From Occultella kanbiaonis (lineage in GTDB: Bacteria; Actinomycetota; Actinomycetes; Actinomycetales; Beutenbergiaceae), in assembly GCF_009708215.1 (NCBI RefSeq), contig NZ_CP046175.1, positions 1 through 64,000 of the forward strand: a stretch of DNA of 64,000 nucleotides, given 5' to 3'. Below, piece after piece: positions 56,826 to 64,000 of the stretch. The stretch's first letter is position 1. Every line of letters begins with the position of its first letter. The notes beneath the pieces were generated by a model, which was not told where the DNA came from, did no database searches, and saw nothing but the letters and a program-made list of their open reading frames with translations. The translations under genes were made by a program, and so were the position numbers.

Positions 56826-57395
56826 ATGGCGCGCCGCGAGGACGTCGACCGCCGCATCTACGCGGCGGCGATGAACCTGCTCCGCACCCATGGCCCGCTG
56901 GCCGTGACGGTCGAGGCGGTCGCCGCCGAGTCCGGCGTCGCCCGGACCACGATCTACCGGCGCCACAAGGACCGGGACGCGGTCCTCGCCGCAGCGCTCG
57001 GCGACCACATGGCGAGCCGGGTCGTCGAGCCGGGCGACGACGTCTGGCGGGACATGCGCGCCGCGGTCGAGTCCCTGATCGCCACCCTGGAGGGCGGCCC
57101 CGGCTCCGGCGTGTTCCTCGGCCTGGTGCAGAGCGGGGACCGGGACCAGGTGGAGCTCATCCGGGACAAGCTGCTGCGGCCGCGGATCGCGCTCGCGGTG
57201 GAGCGGCTGCGGGACGGCGTCGCGACCGGGCAGGTGCGCCCCGATGCGGACATCGAGGTCGCCGTCGACCTGCTCCTCGGCGCCGTGGCGGCCCGGTTCG
57301 CCCACTCGGGAACGTTTCCGCCGGGCTGGGCCGGCTCGGTCGTGTCCACCCTGCGGGTCGCGTTGCAGGCGGACCGCGACCCATCCGAAGGATGA
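56826..57395 (+). CDS. TetR-family transcriptional regulator
   Basis: A 189-residue regulator with a TetR helix-turn-helix (about 10-55; VTVEAVAAESGVARTTIYRR) and an all-helical ligand-binding domain. It directly precedes the ether-lipid-type operon, and a perfect palindrome lies between them, so it is the probable local regulator, perhaps of acyl-CoA-type ligands (inference). Confidence 0.9.
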   Translation: MARREDVDRRIYAAAMNLLRTHGPLAVTVEAVAAESGVARTTIYRRHKDRDAVLAAALGDHMASRVVEPGDDVWRDMRAAVESLIATLEGGPGSGVFLGLVQSGDRDQVELIRDKLLRPRIALAVERLRDGVATGQVRPDADIEVAVDLLLGAVAARFAHSGTFPPGWAGSVVSTLRVALQADRDPSEG

Positions 57396-57439: not shown

Positions 57440-57458
57440 CGCTACACGGTGTGTAGCG
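57440..57458. promoter_or_regulatory. candidate TetR operator, CGCTACAC-GGT-GTGTAGCG
   Basis: Two perfect 8-bp arms separated by 3 bp, 66 nt upstream of the first operon ATG. A possible -10 TAGGCT (57422-57427) with TGGCAC (57398-57403) lies just before it, so binding would block elongation or initiation. Confidence 0.65.
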
Positions 57459-57523: not shown

Positions 57524-58318
57524 ATGGCATTCGATATCGAACGGTTCACCCAGGACTCGATGAGGGTCAACTGGGAGGACCTCGACCTCGACAACTTCCG
57601 CGAGAACCCGCTGCCGCCGGAATCGGTGCGGACGTTGCGGTACATGTGTGACGTCGAGTACCACACGGTGTGTTACCTGCGGGACATGCTGGTCACCCGC
57701 TCCCACGGGGAGGGCGAGGTGAACGCCTTCATGACGATGTGGAACCGTGAGGAGTTCTGGCACGGGGAGGCGCTCGCGCACGTCCTCTCGCTGCATGGCG
57801 TGACGGTCAACTACGACCAGCTCAAGGACCGCCGCAAGAAGCTGGGCTGGCGGGACCGCCTCGCCCCGGTGAAGCAGTCCCTGCTCAGCAACATCGTCGG
57901 CAAGGACTTCGTGGCCGTGCACATGCTCTGGGGCGCCGCCAACGAGTGGTCCGCCGCTGCCGCGTACAAGCGCCTCGGCGTGCTCGAAGGGCACCCGTCA
58001 CTGGCCGAGCTGCTCCGGCGGATCGCCGCCCAGGAGTCGAAGCACGTTGCCTTCTACGCGACGCAGGCGAAGACCCGGCTCGCCGGCAACCCCAAGGCGC
58101 AGAAGCTGGCCCGGTTCGCCCTGAAGAACGCCTGGGCGCCGGTGGGCTCGGGAATCATGTCCGACGACGAGGTGACCCATGTGATGGGTCACCTGTTCGG
58201 TGGTACGGAGGGTCGCAAGGAGATCAACGCGATCGACCGCCACATCGGCCGACTGCCCGGCATGGAGGGCCTGACCATCTTCGCGGACGCCCTCGACGCG
58301 CGCGGCGTCGCGGCGTGA
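57524..58318 (+). CDS. ferritin-like diiron protein (acyl-ACP-desaturase-like ligand pattern)
   Basis: A 264-residue all-helical protein. Predicted diiron ligands fit the order E - ExxH - E - ExxH: Glu45 (CDVEYHTV), Glu77-x-x-His80 (REEFWHGEA), Glu141 (AANEWSAA) and Glu171-x-x-His174 (AQESKHVAFY). The same pattern is used by soluble acyl-ACP desaturases and other ferritin-like oxidases, but the helix spacing is not identical. As first gene of an ether-lipid-like operon it is a candidate oxygen-dependent desaturase or hydroxylase of a lipid intermediate. Cytoplasmic, no membrane segments. The reaction is inferred. Confidence 0.75.
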   Translation: MAFDIERFTQDSMRVNWEDLDLDNFRENPLPPESVRTLRYMCDVEYHTVCYLRDMLVTRSHGEGEVNAFMTMWNREEFWHGEALAHVLSLHGVTVNYDQLKDRRKKLGWRDRLAPVKQSLLSNIVGKDFVAVHMLWGAANEWSAAAAYKRLGVLEGHPSLAELLRRIAAQESKHVAFYATQAKTRLAGNPKAQKLARFALKNAWAPVGSGIMSDDEVTHVMGHLFGGTEGRKEINAIDRHIGRLPGMEGLTIFADALDARGVAA

Positions 58319-59235
58319 GCGGCGAGACCCGCAGGACAGGAGGCCGGGGACGCCAGGCGGGTCCGGACCACCGGGCTCGACCGGGGGCCCCCGAGGCACC
58401 GGGCGCGACCGACGACGGCGCGCGGTTGCCGTTCATGTCCGACTCGGACGGCTTCGACGTGCGCGCCTACACCCGCGATCCGCGGTCGCTGCGCCGCGGC
58501 GACCTCGACCTGGTTGCCATGCAGGGACTGCCCACGAACACCCTGCTCACCCTGCGGCACCTGCAGCAGGTGGAGCGCGGCACCCTGCGGCTGATGCGGG
58601 ACCTGCTGGTCACACCGACCCATGCCGAGTCCCGGGTCACGGCGTTCCTGACCACCTGGGCGTACGAGGAGTACTGGATCGCCGACGCCCTCGAGGCGGT
58701 GCTGGAGGGCAACAACCACACGGAGGTCGCGCACAGCACCAAGCTCGGGCGGATGCGCCGCGGCTGGGACGACCGGATCATCCCCACCGTGGACGCGATC
58801 CGGACGAACCTGCTCGGCAGCGACATCGTCGCCGGTCACATGGCCGTCGGCCTCCTGGACAGCCTCGTGGCCCGCGAGAGCTACGCCCGGGTCGGGGTGC
58901 TGGAGCCCCGCCTGGCGAGCCTGATCGACCCGATCGTGACGATCAAGGACCGGCACGTCGAGTTCTACACCGACGAGGCAGCGGACCGGCTCGCCGCCTC
59001 CGCGGGGGCGCGCCGCCTCGGCCAGCAGGCCGTGCGGTCGTGGCGCTGGCCCGGATCGCGCTACGGCGACCCCGGCTACGTCCAGCCGGTGCTGCGCTAC
59101 CTCTTCGCGGATCCGTCCGTTCGTGCGGACATCGACGCCGCCGACGCCCAGGTCGCCGCCCTGCCCGGGATGGCCGAAACGCACCCGATCCGGCGGGCCC
59201 TCGGGCGGTTCGCGTCCCGGGGAGCACGGCAGTGA
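58315..59235 (+). CDS. diverged paralog of the ferritin-like diiron protein, lacking several ligands
   Basis: Aligns over its length with the preceding protein (DLLVT, the EEYW and VGVLE regions match). Numbered from the ATG at 58435, Glu47, Glu79 and His174 are kept, but His80 is Ile82, Glu141 is Ser143 and Glu171 is Lys171. It is unlikely to bind a normal diiron centre and may be a regulatory or partner subunit. The GTG 58315 overlaps the previous stop and adds a 40-residue Arg/Gly/Pro-rich leader; the ATG at 58435 matches the paralog's N-terminus and is equally possible. Confidence 0.75.
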   Translation: MSGETRRTGGRGRQAGPDHRARPGAPEAPGATDDGARLPFMSDSDGFDVRAYTRDPRSLRRGDLDLVAMQGLPTNTLLTLRHLQQVERGTLRLMRDLLVTPTHAESRVTAFLTTWAYEEYWIADALEAVLEGNNHTEVAHSTKLGRMRRGWDDRIIPTVDAIRTNLLGSDIVAGHMAVGLLDSLVARESYARVGVLEPRLASLIDPIVTIKDRHVEFYTDEAADRLAASAGARRLGQQAVRSWRWPGSRYGDPGYVQPVLRYLFADPSVRADIDAADAQVAALPGMAETHPIRRALGRFASRGARQ

Positions 59236-59245
59236 CGACCCCGCG

Positions 59246-59251
59246 TACAGT
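59246..59251 (+). promoter_or_regulatory. -10 element, leaderless start of the acyl-CoA reductase gene
   Basis: TACAGT lies 7 nt before the GTG at 59259. A -35 is not evident. It may allow internal, additional transcription of the reductase part of the operon. Confidence 0.4.
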
Positions 59252-59258
59252 ATCCGGG

Positions 59259-61526
59259 GTGTCCGACCCTTTGAACAACGCCCACGTCCTCATCACGGGC
59301 GCCACCGGCTTCGTCGGCCAGGCCGTCCTGGAGAAGCTGCTCTCGACCTACCCCACCACCCGGATCAGCCTGCTGGTCCGGCCACGCGGCGCGCTGACCG
59401 CGCAGATGCGCGTGGACAAGCTGCTGAGGAAGCCCGTGTTCTCCGCGTGGCGCGAGCGGGTGGGGGACGACGGCGTGGCCGCCGCCGCGGGTCGTGTCAC
59501 CGTTCTGTCCGGTGACCTCGGGGACGTGCCGCCGCTCTCGGACGACATCGACGTCGTCATCCACTCCGCATCGAGCGTCTCCTTCGACATGCCGATCGAC
59601 GACGCCTTCCGCGACAACGTGGGCGGCCCGGTCTCCCTCTACACCGCGCTGCTGGAGTCCGGCTCGGACCCGCACGTGGTGCACGTCTCCACCTGCTACG
59701 TCGCCGGGCTGCGCAAGGGCGTCGCCGAGGAGCGATCCCTCGACCATGCTGTCGACCGCACCGAGGAGACGACCCGCGCGCTCGCCGCACGGGCCGAGGC
59801 CGAGGCCGCCTCGAGGCGCCCCGAGGTGCTCGGCAGGCTGCTCGAGAAGGCCCGGTCCGTACACCGCCGCGCCGGCGCCCAGGCCGTGTCCCAGGCCGCC
59901 GAGGAGGCCCGCGCCGCCTGGGTGACCGAACGGCTGCAGGACGCCGGACGTACCCGCGCCCAGTCCCTCGGCTGGCCCGACGTGTACACCTTCACCAAGG
60001 CGCTCGGGGAGCGTGTCGCGGAGGAGCTGTGGGGGCGCGAGCACCGGCTGTCCGTGGTGCGGCCCACGATCATCGAGAGCTCGCTGAGCCACCCCTACCC
60101 GGGTTGGATCGACGGCTTCAAGGTGGCCGACCCGCTGATCGCGGCGTACGGGCGCGGCATGCTGCCCGAGTTCCCCGCGCTCGCGGACACGATCCTCGAT
60201 GTCATCCCGGTCGACCACGTCGTCAACGCCATCCTGGCCGCGGCCGCCGCGCCGTCGCCGGTCGGTGAGCCGCGGTACTACCAGGTGGCCTCCGGCATCC
60301 GGAACCCGCTGCGGTTCGGCCGGATGGTCGCGATGATCCGCGAGTACTTCAGCGCCCACCCGCTGCTGGACGACGAGGGCACCACCGTGCAGGTGCCGAA
60401 CTGGACGTTCCCGAACGGGCCCGCCGTCGAGCGAAGCCTGCGCCGCCGCGAGCTCGCCGTCGACCTGGCCGACCGCGCCGTCGGCCGGCTGCCCGCGAAC
60501 GACCGCACCCGCGGCTGGATCTCCGCCGTCTTCAAGGCGAAGCGTGACCTCGGGACCCTGCGCAAGTTCACGGACCTGTACAAGCCGTACACGCAGACCG
60601 AGGTGGTCTTCGACGACGCGAACACCCGGGCGCTGCACGAGTCCCTGCCGGCGGAGCGGTGGGAGTCCCACGGCTTCGACGTCACGGCGATCGACTGGGA
60701 CTACTACATGATGGAGGTGCACGTCCCCAAGGTCCCCGGCCTGATGCGGGCCCGCGGCCGGCGCGGCGCCTCCGGGACCTCCACCAAGCGCGCCCTGCCG
60801 CAGCGCACCGACGTGCTCGCCGTGTTCGACCTGCACGGCACGGTGGCCGCGGCCAGCCTGATCGAGCACTACGTGTGGGTGGAGCTCGCCGCCAAGGGGT
60901 CCGGCCAGGCGTTGCGTGAGCTCGGTGGCATGGTGGCCAACTCCGGCACCTACCTGCAGGCCGAATGGCGAGACCGCGGCGACTTCATCCGCAGTTTCAT
61001 GCGCCGGTACGAGGGGGTCAACGAGGCCGCGCTGCGCGATGTCATCGCCCGCAAGGTGACCCCGTCCCTGCGGGCCCGCGTCCTCGCCGAGGCCACCGAA
61101 CGGATCGCGGAACACCGTGCCGCCGGCCACCGCACCGTTCTGGTCACCGGCCAGATCGACGTCTTCGTGGAACCGCTGGCGGACATGTTCGACGTGATCG
61201 TGGCCGGTCGGATGGAGAAGGACGCCGACGGACGCTGGACCGGTCACCTGGCCACGTCCCCGCTCGTGGACGAGGCCCGCGCCACGTGGCTGACCCGGTA
61301 CGCCCGGGACTCCGGCGTCGACCTCGCCGGCTCCTACGCCTACGGCGACACCTACTCGGACCGGCCCTGGCTCGAGGTGGTCGGCCACCCGAACGTCGTC
61401 AACCCCGACTCCTCGCTGTACCGGTACGCCAAGGAGAAGCGCTGGCCGGTGCACAGCTGGACCACCACCGCCGAGGGGCGGTTCTCCCCGGTCCTTCGCA
61501 GCCTCAACGGATCGGGGCGCCGGTGA
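59259..61526 (+). CDS. fatty acyl-CoA reductase fused to a C-terminal HAD-like domain
   Basis: A 755-residue two-domain protein. The N-terminal NAD(P) domain (about 8-345) has ITGATGFVG, the SDR Tyr243-x-x-x-Lys247 (VYTFTKALGE) and matches alcohol-forming fatty acyl-CoA reductases, followed by a FAR_C-like helical segment (about 350-490). Residues about 518-720 form a HAD hydrolase fold (VFDLHGTVA, VTGQI, GDTYSDRP), but the second Asp of the DxDGT nucleophile motif is His526. It supplies fatty alcohols from acyl-CoA; the HAD part may be a phosphatase or non-catalytic. GTG 59259 is preferred; the next gene overlaps its stop. Confidence 0.85.
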   Translation: MSDPLNNAHVLITGATGFVGQAVLEKLLSTYPTTRISLLVRPRGALTAQMRVDKLLRKPVFSAWRERVGDDGVAAAAGRVTVLSGDLGDVPPLSDDIDVVIHSASSVSFDMPIDDAFRDNVGGPVSLYTALLESGSDPHVVHVSTCYVAGLRKGVAEERSLDHAVDRTEETTRALAARAEAEAASRRPEVLGRLLEKARSVHRRAGAQAVSQAAEEARAAWVTERLQDAGRTRAQSLGWPDVYTFTKALGERVAEELWGREHRLSVVRPTIIESSLSHPYPGWIDGFKVADPLIAAYGRGMLPEFPALADTILDVIPVDHVVNAILAAAAAPSPVGEPRYYQVASGIRNPLRFGRMVAMIREYFSAHPLLDDEGTTVQVPNWTFPNGPAVERSLRRRELAVDLADRAVGRLPANDRTRGWISAVFKAKRDLGTLRKFTDLYKPYTQTEVVFDDANTRALHESLPAERWESHGFDVTAIDWDYYMMEVHVPKVPGLMRARGRRGASGTSTKRALPQRTDVLAVFDLHGTVAAASLIEHYVWVELAAKGSGQALRELGGMVANSGTYLQAEWRDRGDFIRSFMRRYEGVNEAALRDVIARKVTPSLRARVLAEATERIAEHRAAGHRTVLVTGQIDVFVEPLADMFDVIVAGRMEKDADGRWTGHLATSPLVDEARATWLTRYARDSGVDLAGSYAYGDTYSDRPWLEVVGHPNVVNPDSSLYRYAKEKRWPVHSWTTTAEGRFSPVLRSLNGSGRR

Positions 61527-62323
61527 CGTCCGCGGCCGGCGAACGGTCGCCGCTGACCGGGACCGCCATGGTCACCGGCGGCACGTCCGGTATCGGCCTC
61601 GCGTTCGCCCGTGGTCTCGCGGGCAGGGGACTGGACCTGGTGCTGGTCGCTCGTGACGCGGCGCGGCTCGAGTCCACGGCGGCCGACCTGCGGCACGAGT
61701 TCGGGGTCGCGGTCGAGACCCTGACGGCGGACCTCGCCGAGCCCGACGGCGTCGCGGTGGCCGTGGCCCGGCTGACCCGCCCCGAGACGCCGGTGACCGT
61801 GCTCGTCAACAACGCCGGGCACGGCGTGCACACGCCGCTGATCAGCGAGGACCCCAGCCCGCACCTGCAGGCGATCGACCTGATGGTCAGCGGGGTGCTC
61901 GTCCTCGGCGGAGCTGCCGGACGGGCCATGTCCGAGCGTGGCAGCGGCCTCATCATCAACGTGGCCTCGGTGGCCGGCCTGATCCCGATGGGCTCCTACT
62001 CGGCGATCAAGGCCTGGGTCAACGCCTACTCCGAAGGGCTCGGCATCGAGCTCTCCGGCACGGGTGTCCGGGTGATGACGCTGCTGCCCGGTTGGGTGCG
62101 CACGGAGTTCCACGAGCGCGCCGCGATCCGCACGAACTCGATCCCCTCGGTACTGTGGCTTGATGCGGATCGACTGGTCGCCGACTGCCTCGCCGACGTG
62201 GACCGCGGCCGGACCAGGTCGGTGCCGTCGCGGCGGTTCAAGGCCCTCGCCTGGGGAGCTCGGCACGCACCGCGACCGTTGGTGAACAGGGCCGCCGCCC
62301 TGATCAAGAAGGGACGCAGATGA
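61523..62323 (+). CDS. short-chain dehydrogenase/reductase
   Basis: A 266-residue classical SDR: VTGGTSGIGLAFARG, NNAGHG, INVASVAG and SYSAIKAWVN with the Ser-Tyr-x-x-x-Lys catalytic set. The final 30 residues are basic and hydrophobic (GARHAPRPLVNRAAALIKKG), as in membrane-associated lipid SDRs. Good candidate for the acyl/alkyl-DHAP reductase step (inference). The GTG start overlaps the FAR stop by 4 nt, and its own end overlaps the acyltransferase start. Confidence 0.88.
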   Translation: MTSAAGERSPLTGTAMVTGGTSGIGLAFARGLAGRGLDLVLVARDAARLESTAADLRHEFGVAVETLTADLAEPDGVAVAVARLTRPETPVTVLVNNAGHGVHTPLISEDPSPHLQAIDLMVSGVLVLGGAAGRAMSERGSGLIINVASVAGLIPMGSYSAIKAWVNAYSEGLGIELSGTGVRVMTLLPGWVRTEFHERAAIRTNSIPSVLWLDADRLVADCLADVDRGRTRSVPSRRFKALAWGARHAPRPLVNRAAALIKKGRR

Positions 62324-63072
62324 GCGCACAGCGTAGGACCGCCCGGTACCACCGCGCGTGGCACCGCTGGCTGCGTTACGTCGCCCAGCGGCTGATCATG
62401 CGGCCCGTGATCTTCGCGAACACCCGGGTGACCGTCGAGGGGGAACGGCACCTCGCCGGCATCGACGGACCGTTCATCCTGGTCGCCAACCACTCCAGCC
62501 ACCTGGACGCACCGCTGTGCATGACCGCGCTGCCGTACCGGGTCACGAAGAACCTCGCCACGGCGACGGCGGCGGACTACTTCTACAGGCAGAAGTGGCG
62601 CAGCACGCTGACCTCCTTCTTCTTCAACTCCTACCCCGTCGAACGGGGCAGCAACCGCGGCAAGGGCGCCGGGATGTCAGTGTCCCTGCTGCGCCAGGGC
62701 GTGCCGCTGTTGATCTTCCCGGAGGGCACCCGGTCCCGGACCGGCGAGATGGCCGCGTTCAAGCCCGGCGCCGCGGCGCTCGCCCGGTCCCTGCACGTGC
62801 CGCTGATCCCGGTGGCGCTGGTCGGCGCGTACGACGCGATGCCGGTGGGCGCCGCGTGGCCCAAGCCGGGCCGGATGCCCGTGAAGGTGATCGTCGGAAA
62901 GCCCGTCCGGGCCCGCGCCGGCGAGAGCCTGCCGGACCTGAACGCGCGCCTCACGGCGCGGGTGCGCGCCATGCACACCATGCAGACCTCGTACGTCCTC
63001 GTCACCGATGACGACCGAGCCACCAAAGCGCCGGAGACCGACCTCGGCCAGGCACAGGAGGATGTTTCATGA
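62320..63072 (+). CDS. 1-acyl-sn-glycerol-3-phosphate acyltransferase (PlsC-like)
   Basis: Acylates the sn-2 position of lysophosphatidic acid or its alkyl analogue. The 250-residue protein has NHSSHLD (NHx4D), PVERGSNRG, FPEGTRSRTG and VPLIPVALVG, the four PlsC motifs, and an N-terminal hydrophobic/basic region for membrane contact. The ATG overlaps the SDR stop by 4 nt and its stop overlaps the next ATG. In this operon it probably acts on alkyl-glycerol-3-phosphate. Confidence 0.92.
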   Translation: MSAQRRTARYHRAWHRWLRYVAQRLIMRPVIFANTRVTVEGERHLAGIDGPFILVANHSSHLDAPLCMTALPYRVTKNLATATAADYFYRQKWRSTLTSFFFNSYPVERGSNRGKGAGMSVSLLRQGVPLLIFPEGTRSRTGEMAAFKPGAAALARSLHVPLIPVALVGAYDAMPVGAAWPKPGRMPVKVIVGKPVRARAGESLPDLNARLTARVRAMHTMQTSYVLVTDDDRATKAPETDLGQAQEDVS

Positions 63073-64000
63073 CCGACGTCGAACACCAGAAATGGTGGGG
63101 TTGGGGCGTGGAGGGCATCGCCTTCCATCACGAGGACAAGCCGGCGTTCGCGGGCTTCGTCCTGGACAAGGTCGGTATCGACCTGACCCAGCCCGGCGGC
63201 GAACCGCCGACGTTCGACGAGATCGAGGTGCCGGCCAGCCGCCTCGGCGACGACCTCGGCGCCCGGTTGCGGGCCGCCGTCGGCGATCACCAGGTCAGTA
63301 CCGACGACATGCTGCGCGTCGTGCACACCTACGGCAAGGGCATGCGCGACCTGGTCCGGGTACGGGCCGGTGACCTGCCCCGGGTCCCGGACGCGGTGGT
63401 CTACCCGGCGAACGAGGACGAGGTGCGCGCCGTCGTCGACGCGGCCGTGGCCGCGGACGCCGTCCTGATCCCGTTCGGTGGCGGCTCGAACATCTCGGGC
63501 AGCCTGACCCCGCAGCCGCGCGAGGAGCGCACGGTCATCTCCCTCGACCTCGGCCGGATGAACCGGGTGCTCGAGATCGACGAGAGCTCCGGCCTCGCCC
63601 GGATCCAGGCCGGCGGCCTCGGGCCGGACATCGAGGAACAGCTCACCACGCGCGGGTGGACGATGGGCCACCAGCCCGACTCGTTCAAGCACTCCACGCT
63701 CGGCGGTTGGATCGCGACCCGTTCCTCGGGGATGCAGTCGGACAAGTACGGCGACATCGCCGACATCACCCGCGGGATGCGGGTCGTGCTGCCGGGCAAG
63801 GTCGTCGAGCTGCGGCCGCTCCCGTCGACCTCCACCGGGCCGAGCGTGCGCGAGATGATCATCGGCAGTGAGGGGCGCCTCGGCGTCGTCACCGAGGCCT
63901 GGGTGAACGTGCACCGGGTCCCCGAGAACCGCGACGTCATCGCGTACCTGTTCCCGAACTGGGCGGCCGGGCTCGCGGCCATGGCGGAGATCTCCACCTC
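63069..64000 (+). CDS. alkyldihydroxyacetonephosphate synthase-like FAD enzyme (partial, runs off the window)
   Basis: The first 310 residues of a FAD-binding oxidase/transferase that continue beyond the window; the family is usually about 530-560 residues. It begins MTDVEHQKWWGWGVEG; the FAD domain shows VVYPANEDEVRAVVDAA, LIPFGGGSNISGSL and the AGPS-diagnostic HQPDSFKHSTLGGWIATRSS (201-220), then GMQSDKYGDI and GSEGRLGVVTE. It exchanges the acyl group of acyl-DHAP for a fatty alcohol, forming the ether bond. The C-terminal substrate domain is outside the window. Confidence 0.87.
   Translation, partial: MTDVEHQKWWGWGVEGIAFHHEDKPAFAGFVLDKVGIDLTQPGGEPPTFDEIEVPASRLGDDLGARLRAAVGDHQVSTDDMLRVVHTYGKGMRDLVRVRAGDLPRVPDAVVYPANEDEVRAVVDAAVAADAVLIPFGGGSNISGSLTPQPREERTVISLDLGRMNRVLEIDESSGLARIQAGGLGPDIEEQLTTRGWTMGHQPDSFKHSTLGGWIATRSSGMQSDKYGDIADITRGMRVVLPGKVVELRPLPSTSTGPSVREMIIGSEGRLGVVTEAWVNVHRVPENRDVIAYLFPNWAAGLAAMAEIST

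Follow-up and report, generated by a model that had tools for sequence, protein, structure and literature searches.

Gene content and extent of the locus

The 64,000-nt stretch of Occultella kanbiaonis DNA analysed here (the window) opens a single contig of 5.65 Mb, and at its right-hand end lies a gene cluster that an earlier note, made from the letters alone, had read as a candidate ether-lipid (alkylglycerol/plasmalogen) operon. The six genes named in that note are all present, in the order given and all on the + strand. The first, di1 (57524..58318), encodes a ferritin-like diiron protein, recognised by its ligand set and by weak profile matches, and is a candidate for the catalytic subunit of a plasmanyl desaturase. 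Its paralog di2 (58435..59235; 37% identity to di1) has no complete metal site and probably encodes a partner subunit. They are followed by a fatty acyl-CoA reductase (FAR; NAD_binding_4, 1e-46, and Sterile) fused to a HAD domain (6e-30) at 59259..61526, a short-chain dehydrogenase/reductase (SDR; 61523..62323; adh_short, 3e-35) that is a candidate alkyl/acyl-dihydroxyacetone phosphate (DHAP) reductase, a PlsC-type acyltransferase (62320..63072; PF01553, 4e-23) that is a candidate DHAP acyltransferase, and alkylglycerone-phosphate synthase (AGPS), which runs past the window end at 64000 and occupies 63069..64751 of the contig. The 4-nt overlaps described earlier occur at FAR/SDR, SDR/PlsC and PlsC/AGPS, but not at di1/di2 and di2/FAR, where gaps of 116 and 23 nt lie. 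The description of a fatty acyl-CoA reductase stands, with the C-terminal HAD domain to be added, and that of a diiron protein and its paralog stands for di1 but not for di2, from which several metal ligands are gone.

A TetR-family regulator, a probable local repressor, is encoded on the + strand at 56826..57395 (TetR_N, 2e-10; TetR_C_11, 5e-15), 128 nt upstream of di1. On the 3' side, a gap of 422 nt separates AGPS from a phosphoglycerate-mutase-like gene, and AGPS, with its end at 64751, is therefore probably the last gene of the operon. Extension to the right of 64000, which the earlier note had proposed as a way of finding a DHAP acyltransferase, yielded the rest of AGPS only, with no such gene directly after it. 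A scan for promoters and terminators found none.

Phylogeny and catalytic residues of AGPS

The operon AGPS matched the Dictyostelium ADPS with 383 bits (E = 2e-113) and guinea-pig AGPS with 294 bits (2e-86), and its best non-AGPS flavoprotein match reached 81 bits. Its Y474 and H511-H513 align with Tyr578 and His615-617 of the guinea-pig enzyme, residues that we take to be catalytic; Y474, H511-H513 and R413 are kept in 76 of 77 AGPS copies, the remaining copy being cut. A midpoint-rooted tree of 22 rows united both eukaryotic AGPS with eight operon-type rows in one clade (support 100/97) and left the GlcD-like paralogs and the more remote AGPS-like sequences of the order outside it; long branches were flagged in this tree, that of the guinea-pig enzyme included. 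Scores, residues and tree bear out the AGPS-like enzyme of the earlier note, which had offered a grouping with lactate/glycolate oxidases as a possible refutation: the flavoprotein sits with eukaryotic AGPS, apart from the GlcD-like rows, and a glycolate or lactate oxidase identity is ruled out by the same three lines of evidence. By its sequence the operon flavoprotein belongs to AGPS, and replacement of the acyl group of acyl-DHAP by an alkyl group is predicted for it by homology. The passages seen of one report already note AGPS homologues in Actinobacteria from metagenomes (PMC11868695).

The more distant AGPS-like flavoproteins of the order (L156-L161, L164, L165; L-numbers are labels of loci) have 35-40% identity, and a simple pattern check did not find the HHH motif in six of these eight. 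The AGPS of Arenivirga flava (L103) reads in two pieces, owing to a frameshift or an assembly error.

Conservation of the module

Scanning the collection of named genomes for di1 gave 227 encoding stretches, of which the best 80 loci were kept. In 59 of these 80, one Streptomyces included, the DNA fetched around di1 contains AGPS, PlsC, SDR, FAR and HAD together; in 16 it contains no core part, and 5 are partial. Because the same gene set recurs in this way and because its AGPS matches a solved eukaryotic AGPS so closely, the cluster is more than a chance assembly: the operon TetR-di1-di2-FAR-HAD-SDR-PlsC-AGPS is real and complete. Two main layouts were seen, one collinear (Occultella, Ruania) and one divergent (Microbacteriaceae, Phytoactinopolyspora and one Streptomyces).

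Whole genomes were checked for 41 di1 carriers (G000 and 40 of the best 80). A close AGPS was present in 38, in two pieces in one of them, and was not found in Tamaricihabitans, Haloactinopolyspora and one metagenome-assembled genome. Among 297 sampled genomes of the order, 37 had di1 and a close AGPS, 5 di1 only, 25 AGPS only and 230 neither, so that a close AGPS accompanied 37 of 42 genomes with di1 versus 25 of 255 without (Fisher 4e-25, relatedness not corrected). FAR-HAD was found in all 62 sampled genomes with a close AGPS, cut by a contig end in one. Some AGPS-only genomes hold the core without di1, and others have the core and di1/di2 at separate places; this separability fits a core pathway with a late tailoring step.

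Further genes accompany the module in some loci. In 14 loci there is a gene for a DAG-kinase/YegS-like lipid kinase close by (e.g. L053:2050-3033; one member profiled), and in 13 an AMP-binding, acyl-CoA-synthetase-like gene within a few kb (e.g. L049:13846-15441; one profiled); both are taken as optional. The Subtercola version has a gene with a lactate-racemase N-terminal-like domain between FAR-HAD and di1, and this gene was seen at L069:7549-9132 and in nine other loci, mostly of Subtercola.

The di1/di2 pair

Residues E45, E77, H80, E141, E171 and H174 are kept in all 96 di1 copies above 250 bits, giving di1 the E..ExxH..E..ExxH ligand set of ferritin-like diiron carboxylate proteins; di2 does not have it. 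Across 84 di2 copies, E77 is still E in 5, H80 has become I in 60 and L in 13, and E171 has become K/R in 76, with E45 (81 copies), E141 (49) and H174 (58) often kept. Since several ligands are lost from di2, only di1 should hold a diiron site, and the two proteins probably form a heterodimer in which one subunit is active and the other lacks metal. Three named Occultella genomes encode di1 with 97-99% identity.

A Pfam search of 17 di1 members at E <= 0.1 matched nine families, and di1 itself passes no family cut-off; the weak matches included FA_desaturase_2 (17 of 17, best 5e-5), Rubrerythrin (16), COQ7 (10) and Ferritin_2 (6). Against the acyl-ACP (acyl carrier protein) desaturase family PF03405, weakly matched by every member, di1 scored 18.0 bits with a cut-off of 22.7. 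This spread of matches marks di1 as ferritin-like, not as a desaturase in particular. A di1 profile found DesA2 at E = 0.01, with two other proteins, a designed helix bundle and one involved in RNA editing, ranking above it, and PF10520 (Lipid_desat, PEDS1/CarF) was matched by none of the 17 members at E <= 0.1. The ferritin-like acyl-ACP desaturases (stearoyl-ACP desaturase, DesA1/DesA2) share the ligand pattern and a weak profile similarity with di1, which differs from them in falling below the Pfam cut-off, in being shorter and in usually having a metal-less paralog at hand.

FAR-HAD, SDR and PlsC-like enzymes

Residues 5-510 of FAR-HAD match the solved fatty acyl-CoA reductase 7eoz (E = 7e-54). 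In the fused HAD domain, the second Asp position of motif I is E in 58, H in 10, D in 7 and Q in 2 of 77 readable copies; with E or H replacing the Asp in 68 of them, the domain may be a changed or inactive phosphatase. The best NCBIfam model for the SDR is a mycolate reductase, at 156 bits versus a cut-off of 380. The animal protein DHRS7B belongs to the SDR family. It is described as serving as the animal alkylglycerone-phosphate reductase in the part of the source available (PMC13200781), and this likeness, together with position in the operon, makes the SDR a candidate alkyl-DHAP reductase.

The HX4D motif is present in all 90 PlsC-like copies; judged on its sequence only, the enzyme could equally be an sn-2 acyltransferase. 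The earlier note had counted DHAP acylation as missing or encoded beyond the window, which is probably not so. In 71 of the 76 loci with room to tell, the gene immediately before AGPS is PlsC-like (the exceptions are L121-L124 and L136), animal GNPAT is stated to make the AGPS substrate and to form a complex with AGPS (PMC9131029, as excerpted), and in Myxococcus a FAR-GNPAT-like fusion stands beside AGPS. On its position and these analogies the PlsC-like enzyme is the best candidate for DHAP acylation.

Lipid phenotypes of other actinobacteria

Excerpts of the literature record dimethyl acetals (DMA), the plasmalogen signature, in other actinobacteria. They make up 22% in Subtercola vilae DB165, with i-16:0 at 17.0, a-15:0 at 3.2 and a-17:0 at 1.9% of peak area, and sum to 21-29% in the four Subtercola tabulated, S. 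boreus, S. frigoramans and S. lobariae among them; the same excerpt gives at most 4% for Agreia and none for Frondihabitans (PMC5945732). The S. vilae DB165 genome carries the module (L076), di1 and di2 are present in all 12 Subtercola genomes searched, and a close AGPS is present in all 6 of those checked.

DMA is reported from Frigoribacterium as well, and it can pass under another name. In the passages available on the aerobe Kineococcus rubinsiae, whose DMA the authors called surprising at first sight, anteiso-15:0 DMA was reported by the MIDI system as C14:0 2OH, the library commonly used for aerobes having no DMA names (PMC7472656). The 15.6% of '2OH-C14:0' given by MIDI for S. vilae (PMC9287328, in extract) is in line with that misreading. 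The S. vilae genome paper (PMC6518244) contains none of the terms plasmalogen, DMA or dimethyl, and no gene has been assigned to the DMA of aerobic actinobacteria among the literature matches listed.

Comparison with known vinyl-ether routes

Plasmalogens are known from animals, in which their synthesis depends on O2, and from anaerobes, in which it is reductive. We take DUF2229 to be a domain of PlsA; a PlsA-type DUF2229 was found in none of the 41 di1 genomes, six Subtercola included, and the control was positive in 4 of 14. CarF family PF10520 was above cut-off in none of the 297 genomes of the order (one sub-cut-off fragment with stops was seen) and in none of 46 di1 genomes, 12 Subtercola included, a search without a positive control; the absence of CarF is weaker than that of PlsA because no control gave a signal. 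With DMA in Subtercola, no PlsA domain and no CarF found, the vinyl ether there must come from a different enzyme.

The PlsA/PlsR system of anaerobes leads to the same product, plasmalogens, by reducing an existing ester, according to the excerpt available (PMC9702350). The animal peroxisomal and endoplasmic reticulum route (FAR1, GNPAT, AGPS, PexRAP/DHRS7B and PEDS1/TMEM189) has its chemical steps in the same order as proposed here and shares with the operon the AGPS clade, FAR and acyltransferase of the same superfamilies, and an SDR. It differs in that all genes here stand in one bacterial operon and that desaturation is proposed to fall to two soluble proteins of ferritin-like type, in place of the membrane enzyme PEDS1. 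For aerobic bacteria, the available passages of one paper report the CarF desaturase only from myxobacteria and Leptospira (PMC9131029). They describe aerobic plasmalogens in Myxococcus xanthus, where the AGPS-like MXAN_1676 has a FAR-like/GNPAT-like fusion as its neighbour (MXAN_1676-1674), AGPS is the minor route, ElbD, a fusion of FAR, acyl-CoA synthetase (ACS), ACP and acyltransferase, is the major one, and CarF makes the vinyl ether (PMC9131029). By contrast, FAR-HAD, SDR, PlsC and AGPS are encoded by separate genes in the present operon, which also contains di1 and di2; it has no ElbD-type FAR-ACS-ACP-acyltransferase fusion, FAR-HAD and a separate PlsC standing in its place. This gene set combined with a diiron pair was not found in the literature among the matches listed.

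Proposed pathway and alternatives

In the pathway that we propose for this aerobic-type actinobacterium, with the substrate of each enzyme predicted, FAR would supply a fatty alcohol by reducing a (branched) fatty acyl-CoA, DHAP would be acylated by the PlsC-like enzyme, and AGPS would swap the acyl group of acyl-DHAP for the fatty alcohol, which would create the ether bond. The SDR would then reduce the ketone to 1-O-alkyl-glycerol-3-phosphate, and normal phospholipid synthesis would follow. The vinyl ether would arise when di1, probably as a heterodimer with metal-less di2, removes two hydrogens beside the ether oxygen in an O2-dependent reaction.

That this is an ether-lipid operon, as the earlier note held, we state with high confidence: the AGPS tree and residues, the conserved FAR/SDR/PlsC/AGPS core and a module-bearing strain with DMA support it strongly. 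It is rather likely that the operon makes plasmalogens and that di1/di2 make the vinyl ether, a step assigned to di1 by linkage and elimination. We also lean towards regarding di1/di2 as a third, unrelated maker of vinyl ethers which, with the core, would be the pathway behind the DMA of aerobic actinobacteria, some of it read as 'C14:0 2-OH'. If so, the pathway would explain why some air-breathing bacteria have lipids of an animal or anaerobe type, would offer a soluble enzyme where the animal desaturase is membrane-bound, and would bear on how the AGPS route of eukaryotes arose; as the complete gene set is present in cultured genera, the question is directly testable.

Several observations weigh against a plasmalogen product or against di1 as the last enzyme. 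No lipid report on Occultella was found and, among the matches listed, no DMA report for Occultella or Ruania. S. endophyticus shows no '2OH-C14:0' peak in the extract (PMC9287328); the main text on three module-bearing Herbiconiux strains (L051, L058, L060) is silent on DMA and 2-OH acids (PMC10011130); and in Lacisediminihabitans profunda DMA is absent and C14:0 2OH no more than a trace (PMC7033078), the module being present in another Lacisediminihabitans species (L077). DMA could alternatively come from free aldehydes. An excerpt reports plsA/plsR in Actinomycetales and other actinobacterial orders (PMC9702350), and, with no positive control behind its absence, CarF may be an alternative desaturase. 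The di1 protein weakly resembles rubrerythrin and COQ7 as much as desaturases, and no ferredoxin-type donor was seen near it when neighbour families present in at least six loci (four of them Pfam-profiled) were viewed by eye. The relatives of di1 in other actinobacterial classes (29-47% identity) are solitary in every one of the 15 stretches fetched, each 10-20 kb long, with all ligands kept in 14 and the remaining one too weak to check; within four genes of them, no neighbour is common to more than 3 of 14 loci. A close AGPS was found in none of 22 genomes, made up of 17 distant ones, several of which are incomplete, and five from the order itself; these five are among the 42 di1 genomes of the order sample, and three of them also have no FAR-HAD. 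The distant relatives and the AGPS-less genomes show a di1 family wider than the ether-lipid pathway, in which another role is possible.

It is on these last points that a different reading draws, in which the operon makes saturated alkyl ether lipids and di1/di2 do other work, such as a different diiron oxidation or the desaturation of an acyl or alkyl chain at a site remote from the ether bond; the weak kinship of di1, which is to ferritin-like families at large and includes acyl-ACP desaturases, also speaks for it. We think it possible and rather doubtful, since Subtercola has DMA with no PlsA domain and no CarF found, and di1 is the sole unassigned oxidase in the module. The diiron vinyl-ether step of the earlier note is kept as plausible, by linkage and elimination, with the proviso that di1 relatives occur without AGPS. 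The DMA of Subtercola might instead come from an unrecognised route, e.g. a PlsA- or CarF-like enzyme missed by the profiles, with the module there by coincidence. The uncontrolled CarF search leaves room for this, as does the fact that no gene is tied to vinyl ethers in Subtercola-type bacteria among the matches listed; the signal given by the PlsA-domain control and the constant presence of di1, di2 and, where checked, a close AGPS in Subtercola make it improbable. Least probable of all is a wax-ester or alkane product, for which FAR would give an alcohol or aldehyde and di1 would act like an aldehyde deformylating oxygenase. Such a route would suit the FAR and a ferritin-like di1, which is presumably similar in size to that oxygenase, but AGPS with its catalytic residues and the PlsC gene directly before it fit no such route, and an aldehyde deformylating oxygenase identity for di1 was rejected on the absence of the aldehyde-decarbonylase family from the nine Pfam families matched by the 17 members.

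Regulatory region and flanking genes

Between the TetR gene and di1 lies the palindrome CGCTACA-N5-TGTAGCG (57440..57458, no strand). It is unique as an exact match in the 5.65-Mb genome, where its reversed control gave 0, and with up to 2 mismatches it was found once in the window (0.11 expected). The TetR gene has the same place and strand in all seven collinear loci (L040-L046), and the palindrome, read by eye, has identical arms and spacing in all seven collinear-type upstream regions. It is a probable TetR operator, and the local TetR would switch the operon through this one site.

Downstream of the operon in locus L009 (10622-17140) lie two large - strand open reading frames of 1043 and 795 aa, alike by eye, near ABC-permease-like genes.

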